Under the pieces are notes generated by a model. It had not been told where the DNA came from. It saw nothing but the letters and a program-made list of their open reading frames with translations, and did no database searches. Both the position numbers and the translations under genes were made by a program. From positions 1 to 32,000 of the forward strand of contig JACOEJ010000040.1 in assembly GCA_024998645.1 (NCBI GenBank): 32,000 nucleotides of DNA, given 5' to 3'. Source of the DNA: Nitrospira sp. (lineage in GTDB: Bacteria; Nitrospirota; Nitrospiria; Nitrospirales; Nitrospiraceae). Of this stretch, positions 8,258-31,942 are shown in pieces (positions within the stretch are counted from its first letter, which is position 1; each line of letters opens with the position of its first letter).

Positions 8258-9331
8258 ATGAAACGAATCTTTACATCCTGGCTCGATGTGCTTCTCGTCT
8301 TCATTCCTGCTGCACTTGCCCTTGAACTGCTGAAGGCCGATCCGCTCTTGGTCTTTGCTGCTTCTGCCTTCGCCATCATTCCACTCGCCGGCATGCTGGG
8401 CCGCGCGACCGAGCACCTCACGTCGCATGTCGGTGCCGGGATCGGCAGTCTGTTGAATGCCTCACTGGGGAACGCCGCAGAGCTGATCATAGCACTCGCC
8501 GCGCTTCGTGAGGGGCTCCATGATGTGGTGAAGGCATCTCTGACCGGTTCCATTCTGGGCAACATCCTGCTGGTTCTCGGGGCGTCTATGGTGGCCGGCG
8601 GGTTGAAGTATGAACGGCAGAAATTCAACCAAACCGCGGCAGGCATGGGCTCCAGTCTATTACTATTAGCGGCAGTCGGCTTGATTATTCCTGCGCTCTT
8701 TCATTTCACCGCCGCGGATCGGGGCGTGACGATCGAACGGGAGTTGAGTCTGGAGATCGCCATCGTGCTCTTCGTGATGTATGGGCTCAGCCTCATGTTC
8801 TCACTAAAGACCCATCGCCATTTGTATGCAGGGGAATCGCATGATGCGGAGGATCTCGGGGAACAGCCCTGGAGCTTCCGTATGTCCGTGGCCGTGCTGA
8901 CGGTGGTCACCACCTTGATCGCCGTGATGAGCGAACTGTTGGTCGGAGCGATCGAACCGACCGCGCACAAACTGGGTTTGACGCAGGTCTTCGTCGGCGT
9001 GATTCTGGTGGCATTGGTCGGTAATGCGGCGGAGCATTCGACGGCGGTCCTCATGGCGATGAAGAATAAAATGGATTTGGCCTATGGCATTGCCGTGGGG
9101 TCGAGCCTGCAAATTGCTCTCTTAGTCGCGCCGGTGCTGGTCTTTGCGAGCTATCTCTTTGGAACCCCTCTGGACTTGATCTTTACGCCGTTTGAAGTGG
9201 CGGCGGTGACGATCTCGGTGTTTGTCGTGGGCTTCGTCGCGATCGACGGGGAATCGAACTGGATGGAGGGCGCGATGCTGGTCGGGGTATACGCGATGCT
9301 GGCGATCGCCTTCTATTTTCTTCCGGCTTGA
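8258..9331 (+). CDS. Calcium/proton antiporter (CaCA superfamily, CAX type)
   Basis: This 357-residue integral membrane protein has about eleven hydrophobic segments. Both CaCA alpha repeats are evident: [19 protein letters not shown] (GNAAELI at 71-77) and [17 protein letters not shown] (G255 onward), whose acidic residues bind the cation. The acidic hydrophilic stretch [14 protein letters not shown] between the halves fits the acidic loop of CAX proteins. It should export Ca2+ (or other divalent cations) in exchange for protons across the inner membrane. Length and architecture match the family. The ATG at 8258 follows a weak AGG. The divergent unknown gene begins 34 bases away, so its promoter must overlap that gene. 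Confidence 0.93.
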
Positions 9332-9341
9332 GCGGCGCCGG

Positions 9342-9548
9342 TCACACCTTATCCATATCGATCACTTCAGTCGCATCCCACAAATTTTTCCACTCGGCAT
9401 CGGCCAGGTCTTTCTCGCGATCAGCATGGGTTTCGGTTCCGAACGCGAGCGGTGCGGTCTCTATGGGTTCGGGGACCGGCTGTGAGGCTGCGGTCGGTTC
9501 CGCCTGGCCGGGCTTGCGTTTTTTTGCAGGATCCATGTTGACGGGCAT
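9342..9548 (-). CDS. Small hypothetical protein, 68 aa
   Basis: The reading frame begins MPVNMDPAKKRKPGQAEPTA and ends WKNLWDATEVIDMDKV. It is hydrophilic, with a basic Pro/Ala-rich first half (probably disordered) and an acidic helical second half. Support comes from a good ribosome site: GAGGTG lies about 5 bases before the ATG at 9548. It is 84 bases downstream of hemW, where a TTGACA is found. No function can be suggested. Confidence 0.55.
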   Translation of the reverse strand: MPVNMDPAKKRKPGQAEPTAASQPVPEPIETAPLAFGTETHADREKDLADAEWKNLWDATEVIDMDKV

Positions 9549-9573
9549 GAGTCACCTCGCGTGAATGAATAAT

Positions 9574-9603
9574 AGTGTCTCCTTCCGAAGCGCCGGTTGT
9601 CAA
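9574..9603 (-). promoter_or_regulatory. Weak promoter candidate before the 68-aa gene
   Basis: A consensus TTGACA (9603-9598, minus strand) is followed 18 bases later by GACACT (9579-9574), a poor -10 match. It lies in the gap between hemW and the 68-residue gene, so that gene could be transcribed separately. Confidence 0.3.
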
Positions 9604-9632
9604 TGGCATGGCAGGCGATGAAAGAGCCGGGC

Positions 9633-10763
9633 TCAGAACAGCTCTGATGCCACGCTATCGGCAAAACGGCAGCCCAGGGGGGTGAGTGTGATCCGGTCGT
9701 GTTCGTTGACGATCAGACCCCGTTCAGTGAGTTGTGCGAGGATATCGCGTTGTCCTGCATCCTCAATGGCGAGGTTGTTCGGGACCCCCTTCAATAATCG
9801 AAGACCGAAAATCAGGGCATCGCGTCGCTGTTCTTCGTGGGTCAGCATGCGGCGATCCGCGACCGGAAGGTGATCGTTCTGCAGTTGGCCGGCGTAGGCG
9901 TCGAGATTGGCAATATTGCCGAATCGGCTTCCGGCGATGTAGGACTGTGCGCTGGGGCCGAGGCCAAGATAGTCGCCGTCGGTCCAATAGAGCAGATTGT
10001 GGCGACAGGCATAACCAGGCCTGGCGTAATTCGAGATTTCGTAACGGGTGAATCCAGCTGAAGCCAGCACGCTCTCTGTTGCCGTTTCCATTTCAATCTG
10101 AAGCGTTTCGTCCGGTGCAGGGACCAGCCCCTTGGCGATATCCTGAGCCAGCTTGGTGTGGTCTTCGATCGTCAGGGCATAGCAAGAGATATGTGTCGGG
10201 TCGAGGGCGAGGAGTGAGTGCAGGGTAGCTGTCCATGACGCGAGGCTTTGGCCTGGCAGCCCGTACATGAGGTCCAGGTTGATATTTGAAAATCCTGCCG
10301 TTCGGGCATCTTGGACGGCCTGCTCAGTGTCGGATACCGTGCCCGGGCGGCCGATTGGAATGAAGTCTTGGGGAGCCATCGACTCGGCCCCCAGGCTGAT
10401 CCGATTGAAGCCGGCTTCGGCGAGGACTCTCAAATCCTGGCGTGTGACCGTTGAGGGGTGAGCTTCGATGGTCACTTCGACGTCGGGTGTGACGGAATAG
10501 GTGTTTCGGATACGGTCCAGGAGTGCAGCGAGCTGTAGAGATGGAATAACCGTGGGCGTTCCCCCTCCGAAGTAGATGCTCCGAAGCGCGCGTCCAGCAA
10601 GTACATTCTGCTGGTGATAGAGGGTCAGTTCACGTGCAAGTGCTGAAAGGAAGGCTTCGATGCGAGCCGGTGTGGCGATCTCCAGGTAGAAGGCGCAGAA
10701 ATGGCAGCGCTGCCGGCAGAGCGGAACGTGAATATAGAGCCCGATGTCTCTTTGCGGCGGCAT
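9633..10763 (-). CDS. hemW: HemW-like radical SAM heme chaperone
   Basis: This 376-residue radical SAM protein carries the cluster motif C16-x3-C20-x2-C23 (VPLCRQRCHFCAF). It has the SAM-binding GGGTPT (IYFGGGTPTVIP) and LGAESM, DLMYGLPGQ and YEISNYARPG segments typical of HemW/HemN-like enzymes. The C-terminal domain (RRDALIFGLRLLKGV) matches the HemW tail. HemW binds heme and is thought to deliver it to respiratory proteins; older annotation as oxygen-independent coproporphyrinogen oxidase is probably wrong because HemN has extra N-terminal sequence. Length is right for HemW. The start is 2 bases after the stop of the 88-residue gene, so the two are coexpressed. Confidence 0.9.
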   Translation of the reverse strand: MPPQRDIGLYIHVPLCRQRCHFCAFYLEIATPARIEAFLSALARELTLYHQQNVLAGRALRSIYFGGGTPTVIPSLQLAALLDRIRNTYSVTPDVEVTIEAHPSTVTRQDLRVLAEAGFNRISLGAESMAPQDFIPIGRPGTVSDTEQAVQDARTAGFSNINLDLMYGLPGQSLASWTATLHSLLALDPTHISCYALTIEDHTKLAQDIAKGLVPAPDETLQIEMETATESVLASAGFTRYEISNYARPGYACRHNLLYWTDGDYLGLGPSAQSYIAGSRFGNIANLDAYAGQLQNDHLPVADRRMLTHEEQRRDALIFGLRLLKGVPNNLAIEDAGQRDILAQLTERGLIVNEHDRITLTPLGCRFADSVASELF

Positions 10764-11097: not shown

Positions 11098-11328
11098 ATG
11101 CCTATCTTCGAATATGTCTGTAGCGAATGTAAACACCGGTTTGAGCTCTTGATCCATAGATCAGATGAAGCCGCTTGTCCGAAGTGTCAGGCAACAAGGC
11201 TGGAAAAGCAGATCTCTTCGTTCGGGGTTGGCGCGACCGGGGGATGGGCCTCGCCCGGCGCCGGATCCGGCGGGTCTTGTGGCAGCTGCGGCGATCCGCG
11301 GGGACCCGGTTCCTGCTCGACAAACTAG
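11098..11328 (+). CDS. FmdB-family zinc ribbon protein
   Basis: The 76-residue protein starts MPIFEYVCSECKHRFELLIH and has two CxxC knuckles (CSEC, CPKC) about 20 residues apart, the FmdB/CxxC-type regulatory zinc ribbon. The tail is rich in Gly, Ser and Cys (GSGGSCGSCGDP), common in this family. Members are small presumed regulators or RNA/protein-binding factors, without an established general role. AAGGAG (11084-11089) lies 8 bases before the ATG. It heads a three-gene operon. Confidence 0.9.
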   Translation: MPIFEYVCSECKHRFELLIHRSDEAACPKCQATRLEKQISSFGVGATGGWASPGAGSGGSCGSCGDPRGPGSCSTN

Positions 11329-11337
11329 GCGGCCCTC

Positions 11338-11658
11338 ATGGAATCAGAGGAACTCCTGCAACGTGCGATCGGGATCATCGGGCAATCTGATCCGATTATT
11401 AAGCTTCTTCAGCAAGTGAAAATGGGCAAGATGAAGCCTGAAGATGCGGGATTGCGTGCCGTCATTGAGGCCTGGCTTGGGACCTATGAGAAGGTGATCA
11501 GGACCGAGGGGTTGACTCAATCGGCGCTCCGGCGAATCGATCCTTCCCCTCGGGTGGCCGTCTTGCTTGAGGCTGGTGTCCTGCATGTCGATCAGCCTGC
11601 TGTGCGCGGACTCGAAAAGACTTTTTCCCAAGCCTTGGCTCAAGCTCCTGCCGGGTAG
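11338..11658 (+). CDS. Conserved hypothetical protein, 106 aa
   Basis: No family is recognised. The protein begins MESEELLQRAIGIIGQSDPI and appears mostly helical and soluble, with KMGKMKPEDAGLRAVIEAWL and SALRRIDPSPRVAVLLEAGV in the middle. It has no cysteine motif, signal peptide or membrane span. It starts 9 bases after the FmdB stop and ends 11 bases before the next gene, so it is the middle gene of a tight operon. Confidence 0.7.
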   Translation: MESEELLQRAIGIIGQSDPIIKLLQQVKMGKMKPEDAGLRAVIEAWLGTYEKVIRTEGLTQSALRRIDPSPRVAVLLEAGVLHVDQPAVRGLEKTFSQALAQAPAG

Positions 11659-11669
11659 CAGGGTTGACG

Positions 11670-12329
11670 ATGCCTATGCGAGCCGTTCTCGTCGTCTTGC
11701 TCGTACTGTTCTCTGTTCCTGCAAGAGGAGCGGAAGAAGGAGCGGGGATCGGCCCTCTCCAATTCTTGAGCCTGTCTCAGTTTGCCGCCATCATTCCGCA
11801 AGACATCCAGTTTCTGGATGATGCGCCCTCCATTGAAAATTTTCTGACTGCCTTGGACGGCCGGCCTCCCGATTGGCCTGTAATTTACGGGCATGGCCAT
11901 CATGACCCCGGGCATGATGACCGGCTGTTCGCCCTTAATCGTGAACGTGATGCGAGCCGTGCCGGACATTCCGCGTTGGCCAAGCGGATCGCATTTCGGT
12001 GGTCGGGAGAATTGTCTCGATTCGATCCGGAGGTGCAGGGCTTTTCGGTGGCGGTGGGACCGGTGTTTACGACGACGCGATGGGGCCAGGTTCGTTTCAA
12101 ACCGGATGATCTGCCGGGGGGGCTCAAAGCGATCCCTCCGGCAGGCTCAGTGGATCGATTGCAGCGGGAGCTTGCCGCGGGAAAGACTGTGGAACTTGCC
12201 GTCATTATCGTCGGTCGTCTCATTCCGGATGAATCGATCGTGTACGACTTCTCTCACGATCAAGACGGGCTTGGCCTCATCATGCCTTTTGTCCATGTTG
12301 AGGAGGTGCACTACGCACTTTCTCCTTAG
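11670..12329 (+). CDS. Exported hypothetical protein with His-rich motif, 219 aa
   Basis: The N-terminus MPMRAVLVVLLVLFSVPARG is a signal peptide with a likely cut after ARGA, so the mature protein is periplasmic or secreted. The mature part has a His/Asp-rich patch YGHGHHDPGHDDRLF near residue 75 that could bind metal. It is followed by beta-rich sequence (IAFRWSGELSRFDPEVQGFS, WGQVRFKPDDLP, VELAVIIVGRLIPDESIVYD). No known domain is recognised. The ATG at 11670 has AGCAGGG about 6 bases upstream; a TTG at 11664 is less likely. It closes the operon led by fmdB. Confidence 0.68.
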   Translation: MPMRAVLVVLLVLFSVPARGAEEGAGIGPLQFLSLSQFAAIIPQDIQFLDDAPSIENFLTALDGRPPDWPVIYGHGHHDPGHDDRLFALNRERDASRAGHSALAKRIAFRWSGELSRFDPEVQGFSVAVGPVFTTTRWGQVRFKPDDLPGGLKAIPPAGSVDRLQRELAAGKTVELAVIIVGRLIPDESIVYDFSHDQDGLGLIMPFVHVEEVHYALSP

Positions 12330-12660
12330 CTCCTAACAATCCCTCCCTCGGTTTCCCCTCGCCTCATTGAATTCATCTGCTCATCAGTCATAGTCACAAG
12401 TACGTAGCTGATCCGGCATAGGTTAATGTTCTCTCTGTATGAAGAGCCAGCCAGGGTGTGTCACGTTGTGGACATGATTTGAAGGCGCCTGCCGTACACC
12501 AGCTGTAGGGAATGTCCCTCAGCGGGGTCTGATGCGGCAGGATAATGCCTCGATTCATATAGGGATACCAGGCAGCGTCGAAGAACGAGCCTCAGGGTAT
12601 TGGTCTTGCTCAACCAACGCACCACAGGATGAGACCTCGGTTTCATAAAGGAGGTCCGTT
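12330..12660. other. Intergenic region before the DUF1800 gene
   Basis: This 331-base gap has no convincing gene. A weak plus-strand promoter candidate is TTGAAT (12367-12372) with CATAGT (12389-12394) 16 bases on. A strong AAGGAGG (12648-12654) ends the region and fixes the DUF1800 start. A minus-strand frame at 12461-12646 has no ribosome site and is not called. The long leader could hold regulation, but no recognised structure is seen. Confidence 0.6.
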
Positions 12661-16994: not shown

Positions 16995-17879
16995 TCAGAA
17001 ACTGTCTTTGGCGCATCGAAACCCGGTTCCGCTCGGGCGACTGTCCATAATTCCCCAGTCTCGATCACTAGTCCGTAAGCTGATTGCCGGTTTCAGCCAG
17101 GATCCGCCTCGCATGGACTTAATGGCGCCTCGATCAGGTCCACCCGGGTCGCTGAGTGGAGCCGACCGGTAATAGTTCGGATCATACCAATCCTGCACCC
17201 ATTCGGCGGCGTTGCCGGCGAGGTCATGGATACCATACGGGCTGGCTCCGTCGGGGAAGCTTCCTACGGGTAGAGTCAAAACTTCTCCCTTGATGCCTTT
17301 CTCTTTGACCAGCCGTGCCCCGTCGCCCTTGATCCAGAACGCCTCCCAATCGGCGCCGCTTTGAAACTCAATGGTTTGCCCGGCCCAATAGCTGGCGCTG
17401 TTCGCTTTCTTCCAACTCCAGTCGTTGCCCCAGGGATAGCGGCGTCCGTCGGTTCCTCGCGCGGCCTTTTCCCATTCGGCTTCGGTGGGCAGGCGCTTAC
17501 CGGACCACCGGCAATAGGCCACGGCATCTTCCCAGCTCACATTCACCACCGGGTGTTTGGCGATGGCTTGTGGATAGATAGCACTGTCCCAGATCGTCGA
17601 AGCCTGATTATTGTTTGCGGGCGGGCGGTGACCGGTCGATTGGACAAAAGCGGCATAGTCCTGATTGGTTACTTCGAACCGATCAAGGAAGAATGCGTGG
17701 AGGAAGACCAACCGTTCGGGATGTTCGTCAGCCAGACCGTCGCTGCCTTCCGCGGTGCCCATTCGATATTCCCCGGCGGGGATCAATGCCATATCAACGG
17801 CAGGTTCGGCTCCAAAGGCGGGAAATATCGCGCTGACGATCAGGAGGGTTTGGAGCACTCCTCTCATCCGCGCCGGCAT
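16995..17879 (-). CDS. Exported SUMF1/FGE-fold protein without FGE cysteines
   Basis: This 294-residue protein begins MPARMRGVLQTLLIVSAIFP with a signal peptide cut near FGA-EP. The C-type-lectin-like SUMF1 fold is clear: MALIPAGEYRMGT, FFLDRFEVTNQDYAAFV, HPVVNVSWEDAVAYCRWSGK, RLPTEAEWEKAARG, YPWGND, IHDLAGNAAEWVQDWY, SMRGGSWLKP and GTGFRCA. True formylglycine-generating enzymes carry two copper-binding cysteines just after the GGSW-like motif; here that stretch is LKPAISLRTSDRDWG with none. It is therefore probably a different member of the fold. The ATG (17879-17877) overlaps the upstream stop (TAATG), so it is translationally coupled to the di-iron protein gene. Confidence 0.85.
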   Translation of the reverse strand: MPARMRGVLQTLLIVSAIFPAFGAEPAVDMALIPAGEYRMGTAEGSDGLADEHPERLVFLHAFFLDRFEVTNQDYAAFVQSTGHRPPANNNQASTIWDSAIYPQAIAKHPVVNVSWEDAVAYCRWSGKRLPTEAEWEKAARGTDGRRYPWGNDWSWKKANSASYWAGQTIEFQSGADWEAFWIKGDGARLVKEKGIKGEVLTLPVGSFPDGASPYGIHDLAGNAAEWVQDWYDPNYYRSAPLSDPGGPDRGAIKSMRGGSWLKPAISLRTSDRDWGIMDSRPSGTGFRCAKDSF

Positions 17880-18628
17880 TAGGGTTTTTTGAGGCCGCAA
17901 GCCTTGGCGACAGCATCACGATAGGTCAGCCAGAGCCGCAGACTACGCTTCACTGCACCGAGAATCGCTTGTTGCGTTGTCGCGGATGGAGCGTTTTGAG
18001 TGACCATGTCGTATGCATCGTGCCGATGACCGGATTCAACGAGCTGGTGGGCCCGAATGAGATCCATGCAATCCGGGGAGTTCCCATGATACCGGACAAG
18101 GGGATGGTTCTTAATAGTTGTCTCGATCTCTTCCGCCGTCTTCGGCTTGGAGGGCTCACGCAGTTCCTTCCGGTCTTTGACGCTGCCTTCCACAAAAATG
18201 GTGAGGGCTGCTGCACCCAGGACCCAGGTCGATTGTCTGGAGACCCGATCCAACCACGCGCGATAGGCTCGGCTTGCAGGCAAGGGGCGGATCTGTTCGA
18301 AATCTTTCGCGGCGAACCCTAATCCTTCCATCATCGTGAGGAAGAGTTCCGGATGGGATTTGCCGAGTGACAATCCCCCGGTATCTTCTTCATAGATGTT
18401 TTCCGCCAGCATACGTCGGACTGAAGGCGGCGGGTTGTGTCCATGAATCCGGGCGAGGAAGACGGGAAAATCGCGGACGTACACGAAGTATTCCTGCTGA
18501 AAGTGAACTTTGAGCTGATCTTTGGTCAATCGTCCGGTGGCGAAGTGATCCCATGCCCAATGGTGTTTGCCGTCCATGACTTTGAGCAATGCGTCGAGAA
18601 AGCGGGCTTGCGTGAGTCGTGATGCCAT
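17879..18628 (-). CDS. Heme-oxygenase-like di-iron protein (PqqC/TenA/CADD superfamily)
   Basis: The 249-residue all-helical protein contains KVHFQQEYFVYVRDFPVFLA, RRMLAENIYEED, SHPEL and a C-terminal H195-x3-E199-x2-H202 motif (AHQLVESGHRH). With E80/E81, H92 and E148 these could form a di-iron site like that of HDO/CADD-type oxygenases, where the pattern is His-x3-Asp-x2-His; here Asp is Glu. Family members perform oxidative chemistry, including the PqqC step and p-aminobenzoate formation by CADD; the reaction here is unknown. There are no other pqq genes nearby. GCAAGG lies about 4 bases before the ATG. Its stop overlaps the SUMF1-fold gene. Confidence 0.82.
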   Translation of the reverse strand: MASRLTQARFLDALLKVMDGKHHWAWDHFATGRLTKDQLKVHFQQEYFVYVRDFPVFLARIHGHNPPPSVRRMLAENIYEEDTGGLSLGKSHPELFLTMMEGLGFAAKDFEQIRPLPASRAYRAWLDRVSRQSTWVLGAAALTIFVEGSVKDRKELREPSKPKTAEEIETTIKNHPLVRYHGNSPDCMDLIRAHQLVESGHRHDAYDMVTQNAPSATTQQAILGAVKRSLRLWLTYRDAVAKACGLKKP

Positions 18629-18632
18629 CGTA

Positions 18633-18958
18633 CCTTGCCTTCTTGAAGGCCGCCTCGCGAGAATCGTCAGACTCTGTGAGGACGGCGTGAATCCAATTGC
18701 TACTCAAAACCCTGAAGAGATTCCTGCCCCTCTGACCTATAACACGTTGCGGCGGGCCGGCTTCTTAACGGATTGTTCTCTAACCGATGCCTTCGTAAAA
18801 GGTTTGCCGGACTCATTTTCCTCAATGCCGCAGGCGACGACGCCACGGCATTCTGCACAGGCCAACCGCATGCTTGGGCGCGTCTTTCAGGTCCGCGAGT
18901 GGAACAGATGCTGGCGGTGTCGGGCGGCCGAGAGCATCGCGTAGAAAGTGCGGGTGCG
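18633..18958 (+). pseudogene. Frameshifted duplicate of the 93-aa gene at 21525
   Basis: DNA here matches 21471-21806. The first 55 bases (leader with CCTTCTTGAAGG and GAGGAC) are about 85% identical to the leader of the intact gene. The coding part starts with GTG in place of ATG at 18689 and reads VNPIATQNPEEI (intact: MNPITIQNPDEI). It then shifts frame, giving LIFLNAAGDDATAFCTGQPH (intact: PIFLNATGEDATAFYKGQPN), shifts again to VREWNRCW, and again to LAVSGGREHRVES. At least three frame changes are needed to follow the intact protein, so no full product can be made. It lies between the di-iron protein gene and the asnB 3' end. Confidence 0.85.
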
Positions 18959-19058
18959 TCCGTACTCACGTGGGAGTGTAAAGAGGAGAGCGGGAAAGTG
19001 CAAATGCTTGTGTGAATCGTTCTCGAATCTATGTGCCAGAAAGGAAGTCAGATATGTG

Positions 19059-19090
19059 CGATGCGCATCGCTGTGAAATGTGTTTCACAG
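19059..19090. repeat. Two adjacent palindromes 3' of asnB
   Basis: CGATGCGCATCG (19059-19070) is a perfect 12-base palindrome. It abuts CTGTGAAA-TGTG-TTTCACAG (19071-19090), an 8-bp stem with a 4-base loop. No T-run follows on either strand, so this is not a standard terminator. It lies about 130 bases beyond the asnB stop, in a gap (18959-19221) with no other recognised feature. Confidence 0.65.
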
Positions 19091-19221
19091 ATTTCGAGTA
19101 GCGCGCCGGACGAAGAATGAGTGGGTCATGTTTTGCGCGACGGTTCGCACTGCCGGCAGATTGGCTGATGGTGTTCCTGGGCGGTCCTACTCTAGCGAAG
19201 CACCGGAGTGGCCGGTGTCGG

Positions 19222-21135
19222 CTAAAGGGATTCACGATTCAACGGGATGGGCAAAGGGGCGTCGTTCGAGAGCGTGGCCAGAATTTCGAACTGGGCCACG
19301 TTAAATAGTCCCTGAGAAACGTCGGCATGTCCAGATCGGTGTCGCTGGAGATCCTCCACAATCGCACTTACGTTGTAGATGCCTCGCTCACGAACTGCTC
19401 GGGTCGCCAGAAGGTCCTGCATGGGTTCATACAGATCATGGGCAAACCATTTGCGGGTCGGGACAGGGAATCCCATCTTATCGACGCGGGTTCGTACGGA
19501 CTCTGGAATGCGGTGACGCATGGCTTCTCGGAGTACAAACTTGTTCCACGGGCCACGGAGTTTCCAGTTCGTCGCCATATTGAAGACCAGGGATACCAAG
19601 CGATAGTCAAGGAATGGAAGTCGGGTTTCCACGGAATGTGCCATTGAGTTACGGTCTTCAATTCTCAAATACAGGGGGAGCGGGTTGTGTTCCACGGAGT
19701 ACTTCTGTATTGCGTCGAGCGACAAGTCTAGATAATCCGGCACGTCCTTGTGAAAGTGTCGGCTAAGATCTGGCCTATACCACGCGTTGCCCTGCGTTTT
19801 CCGTTGGTGCTTCGTAACAGAAAAGGAATGGTATGCAGGAATGTGGTGACAGGCGGTGATGCCGACTTTCTGGATCGATGAGGCAAACCGCTTCCATGCG
19901 CACCCGCCATGCGCTGATGTGTACTGTTGAATCTCGTTCCATGCATCCCCGAGGCGGCCCTGACGAATCAGCATGGCCCAGTAGTCAGGGAAATAACTGG
20001 AATATCCTCCGATGATTTCGTCTGCGCCTTGGCCGCACAGCACCACGCGTATTCCCTGACCTGCCGCCAGCCTTAGAAGGTCAAATCCAACGATCGCGTT
20101 AAGGGAGTGGACCGGTTCATCTTGAAACCGGATGACCGTGGCCATCTTGTCCCACAGTTCACGAGGTCCTTCTTGAAATTGGTGGAGGGTTGCCCGTGTC
20201 TGTGCCACGGTCTCATTGATATAGGCCGATTCGTCGAACTCCTTGGCGATAAAAGAAAACGCGTGGAGTGCAGTCGCCCGCTCGCGTTCTGAGTCTCCTT
20301 TGAGCTGCGCCAGCAAGCAAATAATCGCCGTGGAGTCCAATCCGCCGGACAGCGTCACACCGACCGGCTGATCACTCCGCATGCGCAGCCGGATTGAATC
20401 CTCGAAGAGCTCGCCAAAGGCCTGAGCTGGATCTGTGCAGGTCATCGAGGGGATCGCATTCAGTGACCAATAGCGCCACTCCTTCCAGTGTCCGTCGGTG
20501 TCCAGCTCAAATGCGGTGCCGGGAGGAAGTTGGTGGATACCGGTGAAGAAGCGCTCTTCGTCGTCTGTGAGTGTGCCTTGAAGGAGGAATTTCGAGGCAA
20601 CCTCCCAATTGACTCCGCCCTGGTACAGCCCCGATGTCCGGAGCGCTTTGATCTCTGAGGCAAATAGCGCATACCGGTCGGTACGATAGTAGAAGAATGG
20701 CTTGATTCCGAAACGATCACGAGAGCCGAAGACGCGGCCACTCAGTCGATCGTAGATGAGGAAGGCCCACATTCCATTGAGCCTCTGCAAACAATCAGGT
20801 CCCCATTGTTGGTAGGCGTGGAGGAGAACTTCTGTGTCACCGGTTGATCGAAAGCTGTGTCCAAGGGACTGAAGTTCCCGGCGCAATTCGATGTAGTTAT
20901 AAATGGCCCCGTTAAAGACCAGGACGAGTTGACCGTTCTCGCTGATCATGGGTTGGTGAGCTGTGGGTGTGAGGTCCAGGATGGCCAATCTTCTGAAGCC
21001 AAGACCCACAGACCCGGACGAGTAGAATCCGCCTTCGTCCGGCCCCCGATGAAGGAGCGCAGAGGTCATCCGGTCAACTGCCTGCTTGTCAGCTGGCAGA
21101 CCGTTAAATCCGACCATTCCGGCGAAACCGCACAT
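19222..21135 (-). CDS. asnB: Glutamine-hydrolysing asparagine synthetase
   Basis: This 637-residue enzyme begins MCGFAGMVGF: Cys2 is the glutaminase nucleophile of class II amidotransferases. HRGPDEGGFY, LAILDLTPTAHQPM, FNGAIYNYIELR and GDTEVLLHAYQQWG complete the glutaminase domain (to about 190). The synthetase domain has the PP-loop VTLSGGLDSTAI, then VVLCGQGADEIIGGY and RIEDRNSMAHSVETRLPFLD. It makes asparagine from aspartate, glutamine and ATP; relatives of this length also sit in surface-polysaccharide clusters and amidate sugars or peptides, but no such genes adjoin. No Shine-Dalgarno is visible before the ATG. It sits alone between an intact gene and its decayed copy. Confidence 0.93.
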   Translation of the reverse strand: MCGFAGMVGFNGLPADKQAVDRMTSALLHRGPDEGGFYSSGSVGLGFRRLAILDLTPTAHQPMISENGQLVLVFNGAIYNYIELRRELQSLGHSFRSTGDTEVLLHAYQQWGPDCLQRLNGMWAFLIYDRLSGRVFGSRDRFGIKPFFYYRTDRYALFASEIKALRTSGLYQGGVNWEVASKFLLQGTLTDDEERFFTGIHQLPPGTAFELDTDGHWKEWRYWSLNAIPSMTCTDPAQAFGELFEDSIRLRMRSDQPVGVTLSGGLDSTAIICLLAQLKGDSERERATALHAFSFIAKEFDESAYINETVAQTRATLHQFQEGPRELWDKMATVIRFQDEPVHSLNAIVGFDLLRLAAGQGIRVVLCGQGADEIIGGYSSYFPDYWAMLIRQGRLGDAWNEIQQYTSAHGGCAWKRFASSIQKVGITACHHIPAYHSFSVTKHQRKTQGNAWYRPDLSRHFHKDVPDYLDLSLDAIQKYSVEHNPLPLYLRIEDRNSMAHSVETRLPFLDYRLVSLVFNMATNWKLRGPWNKFVLREAMRHRIPESVRTRVDKMGFPVPTRKWFAHDLYEPMQDLLATRAVRERGIYNVSAIVEDLQRHRSGHADVSQGLFNVAQFEILATLSNDAPLPIPLNRESL

Positions 21136-21524
21136 GTATAGTTAGTCGCCCTTCGTCATTGTCTTAAGTGGAGATGTGCCGCCGACTGTCCGAGTCCTGC
21201 ACACTTTCGCTTCGTTCCGACTGCACTGAGTTCGGCGGTCATCTTGTTCTAAACAGGTACCGTAATATCGGAAGAAGATCGAGTAATCTCAAGTTTTCAA
21301 TGACTGTTGTTCTGTATAAAAATCTTCAGGGCAGGATCCCATCTGTCAAGTGACGTCAGGTCGAGTAAGGCTTAAAACAACCCTAGAAGTTCCTAGGGAG
21401 AGAGTGTGGCGTACCCTACGCTGATCTCACCGGGAAATCATCCATACGGAAGGGGGGGAGGGCGGTAATTCTTGCCTTCTTGAAGGCCCCCTCGTTAGAA
21501 TCGCAAGACTCTAAGAGGACAGCG
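21136..21524. other. Intergenic region between asnB and the 93-aa gene
   Basis: This 389-base divergent region is visibly richer in A/T than its neighbours and has no gene. It holds two small inverted repeats (21381-21421) and, at 21471-21524, the leader that is duplicated at 18633. On the asnB strand TTGAGA near 21295 and TATTAC near 21269 are 19 bases apart, a marginal promoter; a TTGACA also occurs near 21350 without a good -10. Confidence 0.55.
21381..21421. repeat. Tandem inverted repeats upstream of the 93-aa gene
   Basis: CCCTAG-AAGTTC-CTAGGG (21381-21398) and GCGTA-CCC-TACGC (21409-21421) are two perfect short inverted repeats 10 bases apart. They lie about 105 bases before the ATG at 21525. 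Their spacing suggests operator sites for a dimeric regulator, which is a guess. The duplicate at 18633 does not include them. Confidence 0.5.
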
Positions 21525-21806
21525 ATGAATCCAATTACTATTCAAAACCCCGACGAGATCCTGACCCTCTTGGCTGACGTCGCCTTGCAGGGGCCGGGCT
21601 TTTCAACAGACTGCCTTCTGGACTATGTGCTCGAAGAAGGGTTTACAGAACCTATCTTCCTCAACGCCACCGGTGAAGACGCCACGGCATTTTACAAAGG
21701 CCAGCCGAATGCCTGGGCAGTCTATCAGATTCGTGAGTGGAAACGAGTGCTGACGGTTTCCGGCGGTGGCCGAGAGCGTCGCGTCCAAATCAGAGAAACA
21801 CCCTAA
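21471..21806 (+). repeat. Intact copy of a duplicated ~330-base unit (partner at 18633-18958)
   Basis: The unit comprises a 54-base leader and the 93-residue gene. Both copies share CTTGCCTTCTTGAAGGCC at the left edge and the sequence GACGCCACGGCATT inside the gene. They are in direct orientation, about 2.8 kb apart, on either side of asnB. Confidence 0.8.
21525..21806 (+). CDS. Hypothetical protein, 93 aa, member of a local duplicated family
   Basis: The protein begins MNPITIQNPDEILTLLADVA and includes DCLLDYVLEEGFTEPIFLNA, TGEDATAFYKGQPNAWAVYQ and REWKRVLTVSGGGRERRVQI. It is small, acidic and soluble, with no signal peptide or membrane segment. I do not recognise the family. GAGGAC lies about 6 bases before the ATG at 21525; an in-frame start at 21480 would lie in the duplicated leader and is not favoured. 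Presence of a decayed copy at 18633 shows the gene has been duplicated locally. A stem-loop follows its stop directly. Confidence 0.78.
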   Translation: MNPITIQNPDEILTLLADVALQGPGFSTDCLLDYVLEEGFTEPIFLNATGEDATAFYKGQPNAWAVYQIREWKRVLTVSGGGRERRVQIRETP

Positions 21807-21843
21807 GCGCTGTTCGATCGTAAAAAGGCTGAGCGAACAGTGC
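21807..21843. repeat. Stem-loop immediately after the 93-aa gene
   Basis: GCGCTGTTCG (21807-21816) pairs with CGAACAGTGC (21834-21843) through ten pairs, one a G-T wobble, around a 17-base A-rich loop. It starts right after the stop codon. No T-run follows, so termination would need Rho or the structure may protect the mRNA end. Confidence 0.5.
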
Positions 21844-21897
21844 CGATGCACGTACGATTTGCCAGGCGATCCTTAGATAAGGAACGGTAATTTCTCT

Positions 21898-31711: not shown

Positions 31712-31721
<10 letters not shown>
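31104..31721 (+). CDS. rdgB: XTP/dITP diphosphatase (RdgB/HAM1)
   Basis: This 205-residue enzyme hydrolyses non-canonical purine triphosphates (ITP, dITP, XTP) to monophosphates, keeping them out of nucleic acids. It begins MISEVVLATRNRHKVEELTA (GTG start at 31104). It contains CEANAIKKACEIA, AVADDTGLEVDALDGRPGVY, the SGSKGFGYDPVFYVPE loop and ISHRAKA, all canonical. The last codons (GTC GGG GCG TAG) overlap the 5' end of tRNA-Pro: the final ten bases of the gene are the first ten of the tRNA, and the stop is formed by tRNA bases 8-10. Confidence 0.95.
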
Positions 31722-31790
<69 letters not shown>

Positions 31791-31865: not shown

Positions 31866-31942
31866 GCGCCCGTAGCTCAGTTGGATAGAGCAACGGCCTT
31901 CTAAGCCGTAGGTCGCTGGTTCGATTCCAGCCGGGCGCACCA
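31866..31942 (+). tRNA. tRNA-Arg (anticodon TCT)
   Basis: A 77-base cloverleaf: acceptor GCGCCCG pairs with CGGGCGC (31932-31938), followed by A and an encoded CCA (31940-31942). The stem ACGGC/GCCGT encloses CTTCTAA, giving anticodon TCT. The T-arm contains GGTTCGATTCC. It lies 77 bases after tRNA-Pro. Confidence 0.96.

Follow-up and report, generated by a model that had tools for sequence, protein, structure and literature searches.

Duplication-degeneration-complementation, or subfunctionalisation, is the outcome of complementary losses in two copies that together keep the ancestral functions. The excludon of Listeria (Wurtzel et al. 2012), as it is described in PMC4179725 and PMC7154746, has a long overlapping 5' leader, and the noncontiguous operon is represented in the account of PMC7154746 by menE-menC-MW1733-ytkD-MW1731 of S. 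aureus. The subject of this report is a locus in a stretch of 32,000 nt of DNA from Nitrospira sp., a nitrite-oxidising bacterium, where a small gene of 93 residues, here called S93, is found intact on one side of an asnB-type gene and as a broken copy on the other (Table 1). The whole stretch is referred to as the window and is labelled W in comparisons. We consider it likely that the broken left copy has been kept to supply promoter and leader to the neighbouring operon, which begins with a haem-oxygenase-like gene and continues with an FGE-sulfatase-domain gene, after a duplication and the reciprocal decay of the two copies.

The history that we propose is the following. In the ancestor, the divergent haem-oxygenase-like/FGE operon would have had a 5' leader within which S93 lay on the opposite strand, with the promoter of the operon just beyond the S93 stop codon and its ribosome site overlapping the -35 box of S93; the two would have formed an excludon-like pair, nested and antisense. 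Within one Nitrospira clade, a duplication would have taken in everything from the ribosome site to the antisense promoter, and a two-gene islet would have come between the copies, either with the duplication or after it. Each copy would then have retained just what its own neighbour needs: the left copy would have given up the S93 promoter and reading frame but gone on serving the operon as promoter, leader and ribosome site, and the right copy would have given up the antisense promoter but gone on as the S93 gene. The head-on overlap of the two genes would in this way have been undone.

As in duplication-degeneration-complementation, complementary losses would jointly keep the ancestral functions, but what is divided here is a gene and the opposite-strand promoter of its neighbour, and not two expression domains of one gene. 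Set against the Listeria excludon, as far as it is portrayed in the two accounts cited, the locus would share the divergent neighbours, the one promoter beyond the other gene and the leader antisense to the whole neighbour. It differs in being known here from sequence alone, in a leader that would measure about 340 nt in the window, as calculated from the coordinates, over one small gene, and in having been taken apart in this clade. With the noncontiguous operon, in the form outlined in PMC7154746, it would share a gene nested antisense within another transcription unit, although the nested gene here is in the leader before the first gene and not between operon genes. A limited search of the literature returned nothing on this locus and no case of such a pair being dismantled by duplication and reciprocal loss.

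The relatives' set comprised 80 loci, nearly all of them from Nitrospira, Nitrospiraceae, Nitrospirae or Nitrospirota and one from an uncultured Nitrosospira; counts given as outside the clade refer to the 76 loci that are left when the 4 inside the clade are taken away. The window was compared in detail with the loci of nine relatives. Five of these (G068, G067, G023, G070 and G069) have a single copy and no insert, and are the kind of relative, with one copy and no asnB, that an earlier reading of the window from its sequence alone (the sequence-only reading) had proposed to search for. The degenerate left copy is present in five assemblies (W, G014, G002, G040 and G039), and a search of the DNA of 79 genus genomes with the left copy, which matched in 51 of them, gave no further degenerate copies. 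The usual gene order among the loci listed is FGE-like (-), haem-oxygenase-like (-), a gap of ~58 bp and S93 (+), mostly with DUF2007 next.

The duplication and the lesions that the left copies share are seen directly in the alignments. The direct repeat, which the sequence-only reading had placed at 21471 (intact) and 18633 (degenerate), was found independently. It starts sharply at CTTGCC in both copies (18634 and 21471), the right copy spanning 21471-21806, and its blocks are in register at a spacing of 2837-2842: a leader of 54 nt at 85%, which is the identity that had been estimated for the leaders, followed by blocks of 82 nt (78%) and 25 nt (84%); blastn joins 316 nt of the two copies at 75%. 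The extent first given for the left copy, 18633-18958, is present but falls short, since the homology runs on to 19011-19015 against single-copy relatives and to 19066 against the left copy of G014, and this extra 3' part is the one that matters most. In W a GTG replaces the ATG through the loss of 1 nt and is followed by changes of -1, +1, -1 and -3, which bears out the GTG start and the three or more frame changes read earlier. The loss of the start-codon base, the -1 at GAGTGG-AAC and the loss of GGT are common to 5/5 left copies; at GGGC all left copies have additional bases, one in W and two in each of the other four, and three have large deletions of the body that leave both ends untouched. 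Because the same lesions are common to five assemblies, they are old, and sequencing error, which had been named as a possible source of the frame changes, was rejected.

The left copies form one group with 100% support. In the broad tree those of W and G014 fall inside the clade, including G070, and a placement outside, and so a distant origin of the left copy, was rejected by the approximately unbiased (AU) test (p 0.017; the program warned that 5000 replicates are few). Both copies come from one local ancestor on this test, as duplication-degeneration-complementation expects, and the suggestion of a local duplication that included control sequence is upheld.

The losses in the two copies are reciprocal, and this too is directly observed. 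The S93 promoter, TTGCCT-N18-TACAAT/TAGAAT, has at least 11/12 sites in 73/76 loci outside the clade (control 1/352), and a generic promoter scan does recover it in G068. Its -10 box is TAGAAT in 5/5 right copies and is intact in 5/5 single copies; the left copies read GAGAAT, GAGAAC, GAGAAT, AAGAAC and GAGAAC, so that it is destroyed in 5/5. A promoter-like element on the opposite strand, past the end of S93, shows the reverse: all 12 of its sites are kept in 5/5 left and 5/5 single copies, and 7-9 of 12 in 5/5 right copies. The five single-copy relatives all have both the S93 promoter and the antisense element intact, and complementary losses together with an undivided ancestor, the marks of duplication-degeneration-complementation, are thus both found in the sequences. 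Reciprocal loss is the main reason why we read the element as the promoter of the operon and not as part of S93 or DUF2007. That the element belongs to the 3' end of S93 or to the upstream control of DUF2007 is suggested by its position between both genes in single-copy genomes, but it is lost in 5/5 right copies, although S93 and DUF2007 stand there intact side by side, and kept in 5/5 left copies, which have neither gene, and we find this idea hardly credible.

Pairwise differences among the left copies are 0.058 in the ribosome-site segment, 0.154 in the 3' flank and 0.280 in the body, and among the right and single copies 0.114 in the body and 0.340 in the 3' flank. The left copy could also be a plain decaying pseudogene whose element and leader were kept by chance or slow decay, as the broken reading frame, the broken S93 promoter and the internal deletions in three left copies would allow. 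Over the ~0.75 substitutions per site that the left-copy branches sum to, however, the 12 core sites are unchanged, for which the chance is ~1e-4, and the decay is concentrated between the two retained ends; we regard a plain pseudogene as very improbable. The term frameshifted duplicate, used in the sequence-only reading, is right as to the frame, but the left copy is not simply dead because it keeps the apparent promoter and ribosome site of the operon.

Across the genus, the 3' flanks have GAGTGTAAAG...AAAGTGCAA directly beyond S93, which on the minus strand reads TTGCAC-N17-TACACT. At least 10/12 sites of this element were found on the minus strand in 64/76 loci outside the clade, against 0/76 for the plus strand and 1/357 for random regions. 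The profile of 71 aligned loci has two sharp blocks and a variable spacer, with TTG and TA-A-T the most invariant. The downstream end of the -10 lies at a median of 13 nt beyond the last S93 sense codon, so the transcript would start near the S93 stop and run across all of S93. Searching whole genomes for the pattern with up to 1 mismatch gave 60 matches in 59/79 genomes, against 2 for the reversed pattern, and all 60 lie no more than about 300 bp from the 3' end of an S93. The single match in each double-copy genome (5/5) falls in the degenerate copy, and G056 has two matches for its two S93 copies on two contigs. One mark of an excludon, a promoter beyond the divergent neighbour, would correspond here, at the level of sequence only, to a promoter-like element conserved at that place and on that strand. 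On the other side of S93, the ribosome site AGGCAA is found in 73/76 loci outside the clade, and in 69 a start codon follows after 2-12 nt; the -35 box of S93 is the opposite-strand ribosome site of the divergent haem-oxygenase-like gene.

We take the element to be a predicted promoter, from which we infer the overlap of transcripts and past interference. Several points weigh against this reading. TTGCAC/TACACT is a poor fit to the E. coli consensus and is omitted by the generic promoter scan; the hexamers were picked after inspection of the sequences, and the loci are related to one another; 8/76 loci score below 10/12 (one of these, L140, has N at the site, and four more score 9); and the five left copies are the descendants of one duplication and not independent events, which may also be true of the losses in the right copies. 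The poor fit to the consensus, the near-uniqueness of the element in each genome and the near-direct repeats AGTGTAA/AGTGCAA that its blocks form on the plus strand would suit a regulator binding site or other DNA element, with the operon promoter elsewhere in the leader. We think this unlikely, as a spacing of 17 (68/76 loci) and the invariant TTG and TA-A-T fit -35/-10 boxes, and the variant TTGCTT, present in 20/76 loci, breaks the direct repeat.

Table 1. Features of the S93 locus and its flanks in the window
Feature	Position	Strand	Basis or remark
FGE-sulfatase-domain gene	16995..17900	-	22 bp overlap with the end of the haem-oxygenase-like gene
Haem-oxygenase-like gene (iron-containing redox enzyme, PF14518), first gene of the operon	17879..18628	-	Domain match
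Ribosome site AAGAAGGCAAGG of the haem-oxygenase-like gene	18633..18644	-	Sequence; overlaps what was the S93 -35 box
Left degenerate copy of the S93 unit	18634..19066	+	Alignment and shared lesions; apparently leader/promoter of the minus-strand operon to the left
Destroyed S93 -10 box (GAGAAT, not TAGAAT)	18659..18664	+	Lost in 5/5 left copies; kept in 10/10 right and single copies
Promoter-like element TTGCAC-N17-TACACT	18975..19003	-	Points left to the haem-oxygenase-like gene; sole match in this genome
Islet separating the copies	19067..21470		A GH141-like beta-helix gene is or was part of it in relatives, but not here
asnB-type glutamine amidotransferase, islet remnant	19222..21135	-	PF00733 (Asn_synthase) and PF13537 (GATase_7)
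S93 promoter TTGCCT-N18-TAGAAT	21472..21501	+	Intact in 5/5 right and 5/5 single copies
S93, intact 93-residue gene (right copy)	21525..21806	+	Open reading frame; no Pfam or NCBIfam match
Decayed counterpart CGGCAC-N17-TACGAT of the element, right copy	21817..21845	-	8/12

The anatomy of the islet was read directly from the assemblies. Species have eroded a two-gene islet (a GH141-like beta-helix protein and asnB) in different ways: between the copies, G014 has a 597-residue beta-helix protein and an asnB cut by the contig end, G002 the beta-helix gene and scraps of asnB, G040 the beta-helix gene alone, W asnB alone, and G039 neither gene, with ~60 bp from the left 3' flank to the right copy. 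The sequence-only reading had rightly placed asnB between the copies, but its proposal of asnB as a lone later insert gives way to that of a remnant of the two-gene islet found in relatives. An independent lone insertion was rejected, the beta-helix gene occurring in 3/79 genus genomes, always sited between the two copies, once beside asnB (G014) and once beside its remnants (G002). The long minus-strand open reading frames in the islets of the relatives are only asnB or the beta-helix gene. The latter is GH141-like by the insertion domain PF21231 (67.9 bits) and the right-handed beta helix PF13229 (56.0 bits), both above gathering scores, and its activity is predicted. Ratios of nonsynonymous to synonymous substitution rates (dN/dS) of 0.10 for asnB (against G014) and 0.13-0.18 for the beta-helix gene indicate purifying selection. 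In G014 the asnB contig ends within asnB (L143 6752), and the right copy, an intact S93 (L144 ~9265-9820, oriented as in the window), is behind an N gap on another contig, beside a stretch that resembles, as judged by eye, part of a transposase.

The asnB gene is on the strand opposite to that of both repeat copies. Its product scores 413 bits as a glutamine-hydrolysing asparagine synthase (TIGR01536, cut-off 267), with MCGFAG (Cys2) and SGGLDS at 263, and is below the cut-offs for the XrtA/PEP-CTERM amidotransferase TIGR03108 (372 vs 817 bits) and the N-acetylglutaminylglutamine amidotransferase TIGR03104 (375 vs 570 bits). Its flank at 21136-21470 has 49.0% GC vs 56.4% for the window and is AT-richer, as had been remarked; the remark that asnB has no ribosome site was nearly right, the sole purine-rich stretch seen by eye upstream of its ATG being AAGGG, 13 nt away. 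Identity is 91% to the gene of G014; the next matches within the genus are at 52-54%, and those from further genera of the family (295 genomes) reach 60%. The neighbours of two asnB relatives (L150, L175) are glycosyltransferases, sugar epimerases and FemAB-like genes, with a carbamoyltransferase gene in L175. The gene resembles the asnB-type amidotransferases of polysaccharide clusters, its relatives at 53-60% identity, and is unlike them in being alone here, outside any such cluster. The islet is probably a polysaccharide-modifying pair, by predicted function, that is being lost piecemeal. In many genomes of the genus, amidotransferases of the asnB type give a dozen or more matches, with a maximum of 18 in G003.

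The order in which the copies and the islet arose is less certain. Instead of tandem duplication followed by insertion, a circular DNA with the islet and the S93 segment of a close relative may have been integrated by homologous recombination, an origin that is compatible with reciprocal decay of the copies. A long direct repeat bounding genes that are absent from relatives is the trace such an event would be expected to leave, and in the left flank (16995-18633) the five double-copy genomes all come together, contrary to the species tree (AU 0.986), the species topology being rejected there in two versions (AU 0.024 and 0.002). G023, whose contig begins in the flank, was left out of this test. 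The left copies, however, group with genes of the clade itself, so the donor would have to be a close relative; no integrase or transposase, the sign of a mobile element, was found among the 17 window proteins scanned; and homology of the right end of the islet to the S93 3' flank, of which it might have been a leftover, was not significant. We regard integration of a circle as possible but somewhat doubtful. A plasmid source was also rejected (39% or below for the best among the 8 of 38 matches listed), as was a phage source, with no phage match.

The tree of five right-hand genes, ((W,G002),((G014,G023),(G068,G067))),(G039,G040) with G070 outside, nests single-copy genomes inside double-copy ones, although support for joining G068/G067 to G014/G023 is only 41%. 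Its conflict with the left flank implies that recombination through the flanks either spread the filled allele or brought back the empty one, and the locus seems to have recombined between species. The idea of a recombination-prone region put forward in the sequence-only reading gains some support here, in that the tree of the left flank differs from that of the rest; since the divergence ratios are uneven over the region as a whole, recombination may be widespread in it. Positions 11201-12600 of the window are strongly divergent (0.22-0.28 differences from G068, G039 and G040) beside well conserved genes.

The S93 protein is present in 73/79 genomes of the genus. Its AlphaFold model is poor (predicted local distance difference test, pLDDT, 57), and no solved structure was convincing as a relative (best E-value 0.12). 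A palindrome in the leader has 11 matches (up to 2 mismatches) in this genome, and the reversed control has 5. An attachment or regulon site was rejected for it, since the ribosome site and -35 box that overlap there account better for its conservation. G056 has two intact S93 loci (L077, L104), each with its antisense element, and perhaps represents two strains binned together. The haem-oxygenase-like gene is under strong selection (dN/dS 0.02, W vs G014). It is missing from L084, L096, L106, L111 and L128, where the FGE gene adjoins S93; in L084 and L096 the antisense element is still present, with a spacer of 18 nt. An additional 4-5 kb separates DUF2007 from the following gene in L067 and L151 (G011 and G069, a two-genome lineage). 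The right end of the window has two tRNA genes on the plus strand (31712-31785 and 31866-31939), and an Rfam scan of the window gave these two tRNAs only.

In its widest form our interpretation, which we believe and doubt in about equal measure, is that a genus-wide antisense switch, with the operon promoter beyond S93 and complementary messages, has been dismantled in one clade, where a pseudogene would have become a live promoter and leader. If this is true, the clade is a natural knock-out of antisense coupling. Close species with coupled and uncoupled versions of both genes would make the effect of the antisense overlap on expression testable by comparison. The left copy is also a warning that a duplicate with a broken reading frame can still serve the adjoining gene as functional DNA. 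S93, an unstudied gene, and the adjoining operon are a likely regulatory pair, kept across a genus that is central to nitrification.

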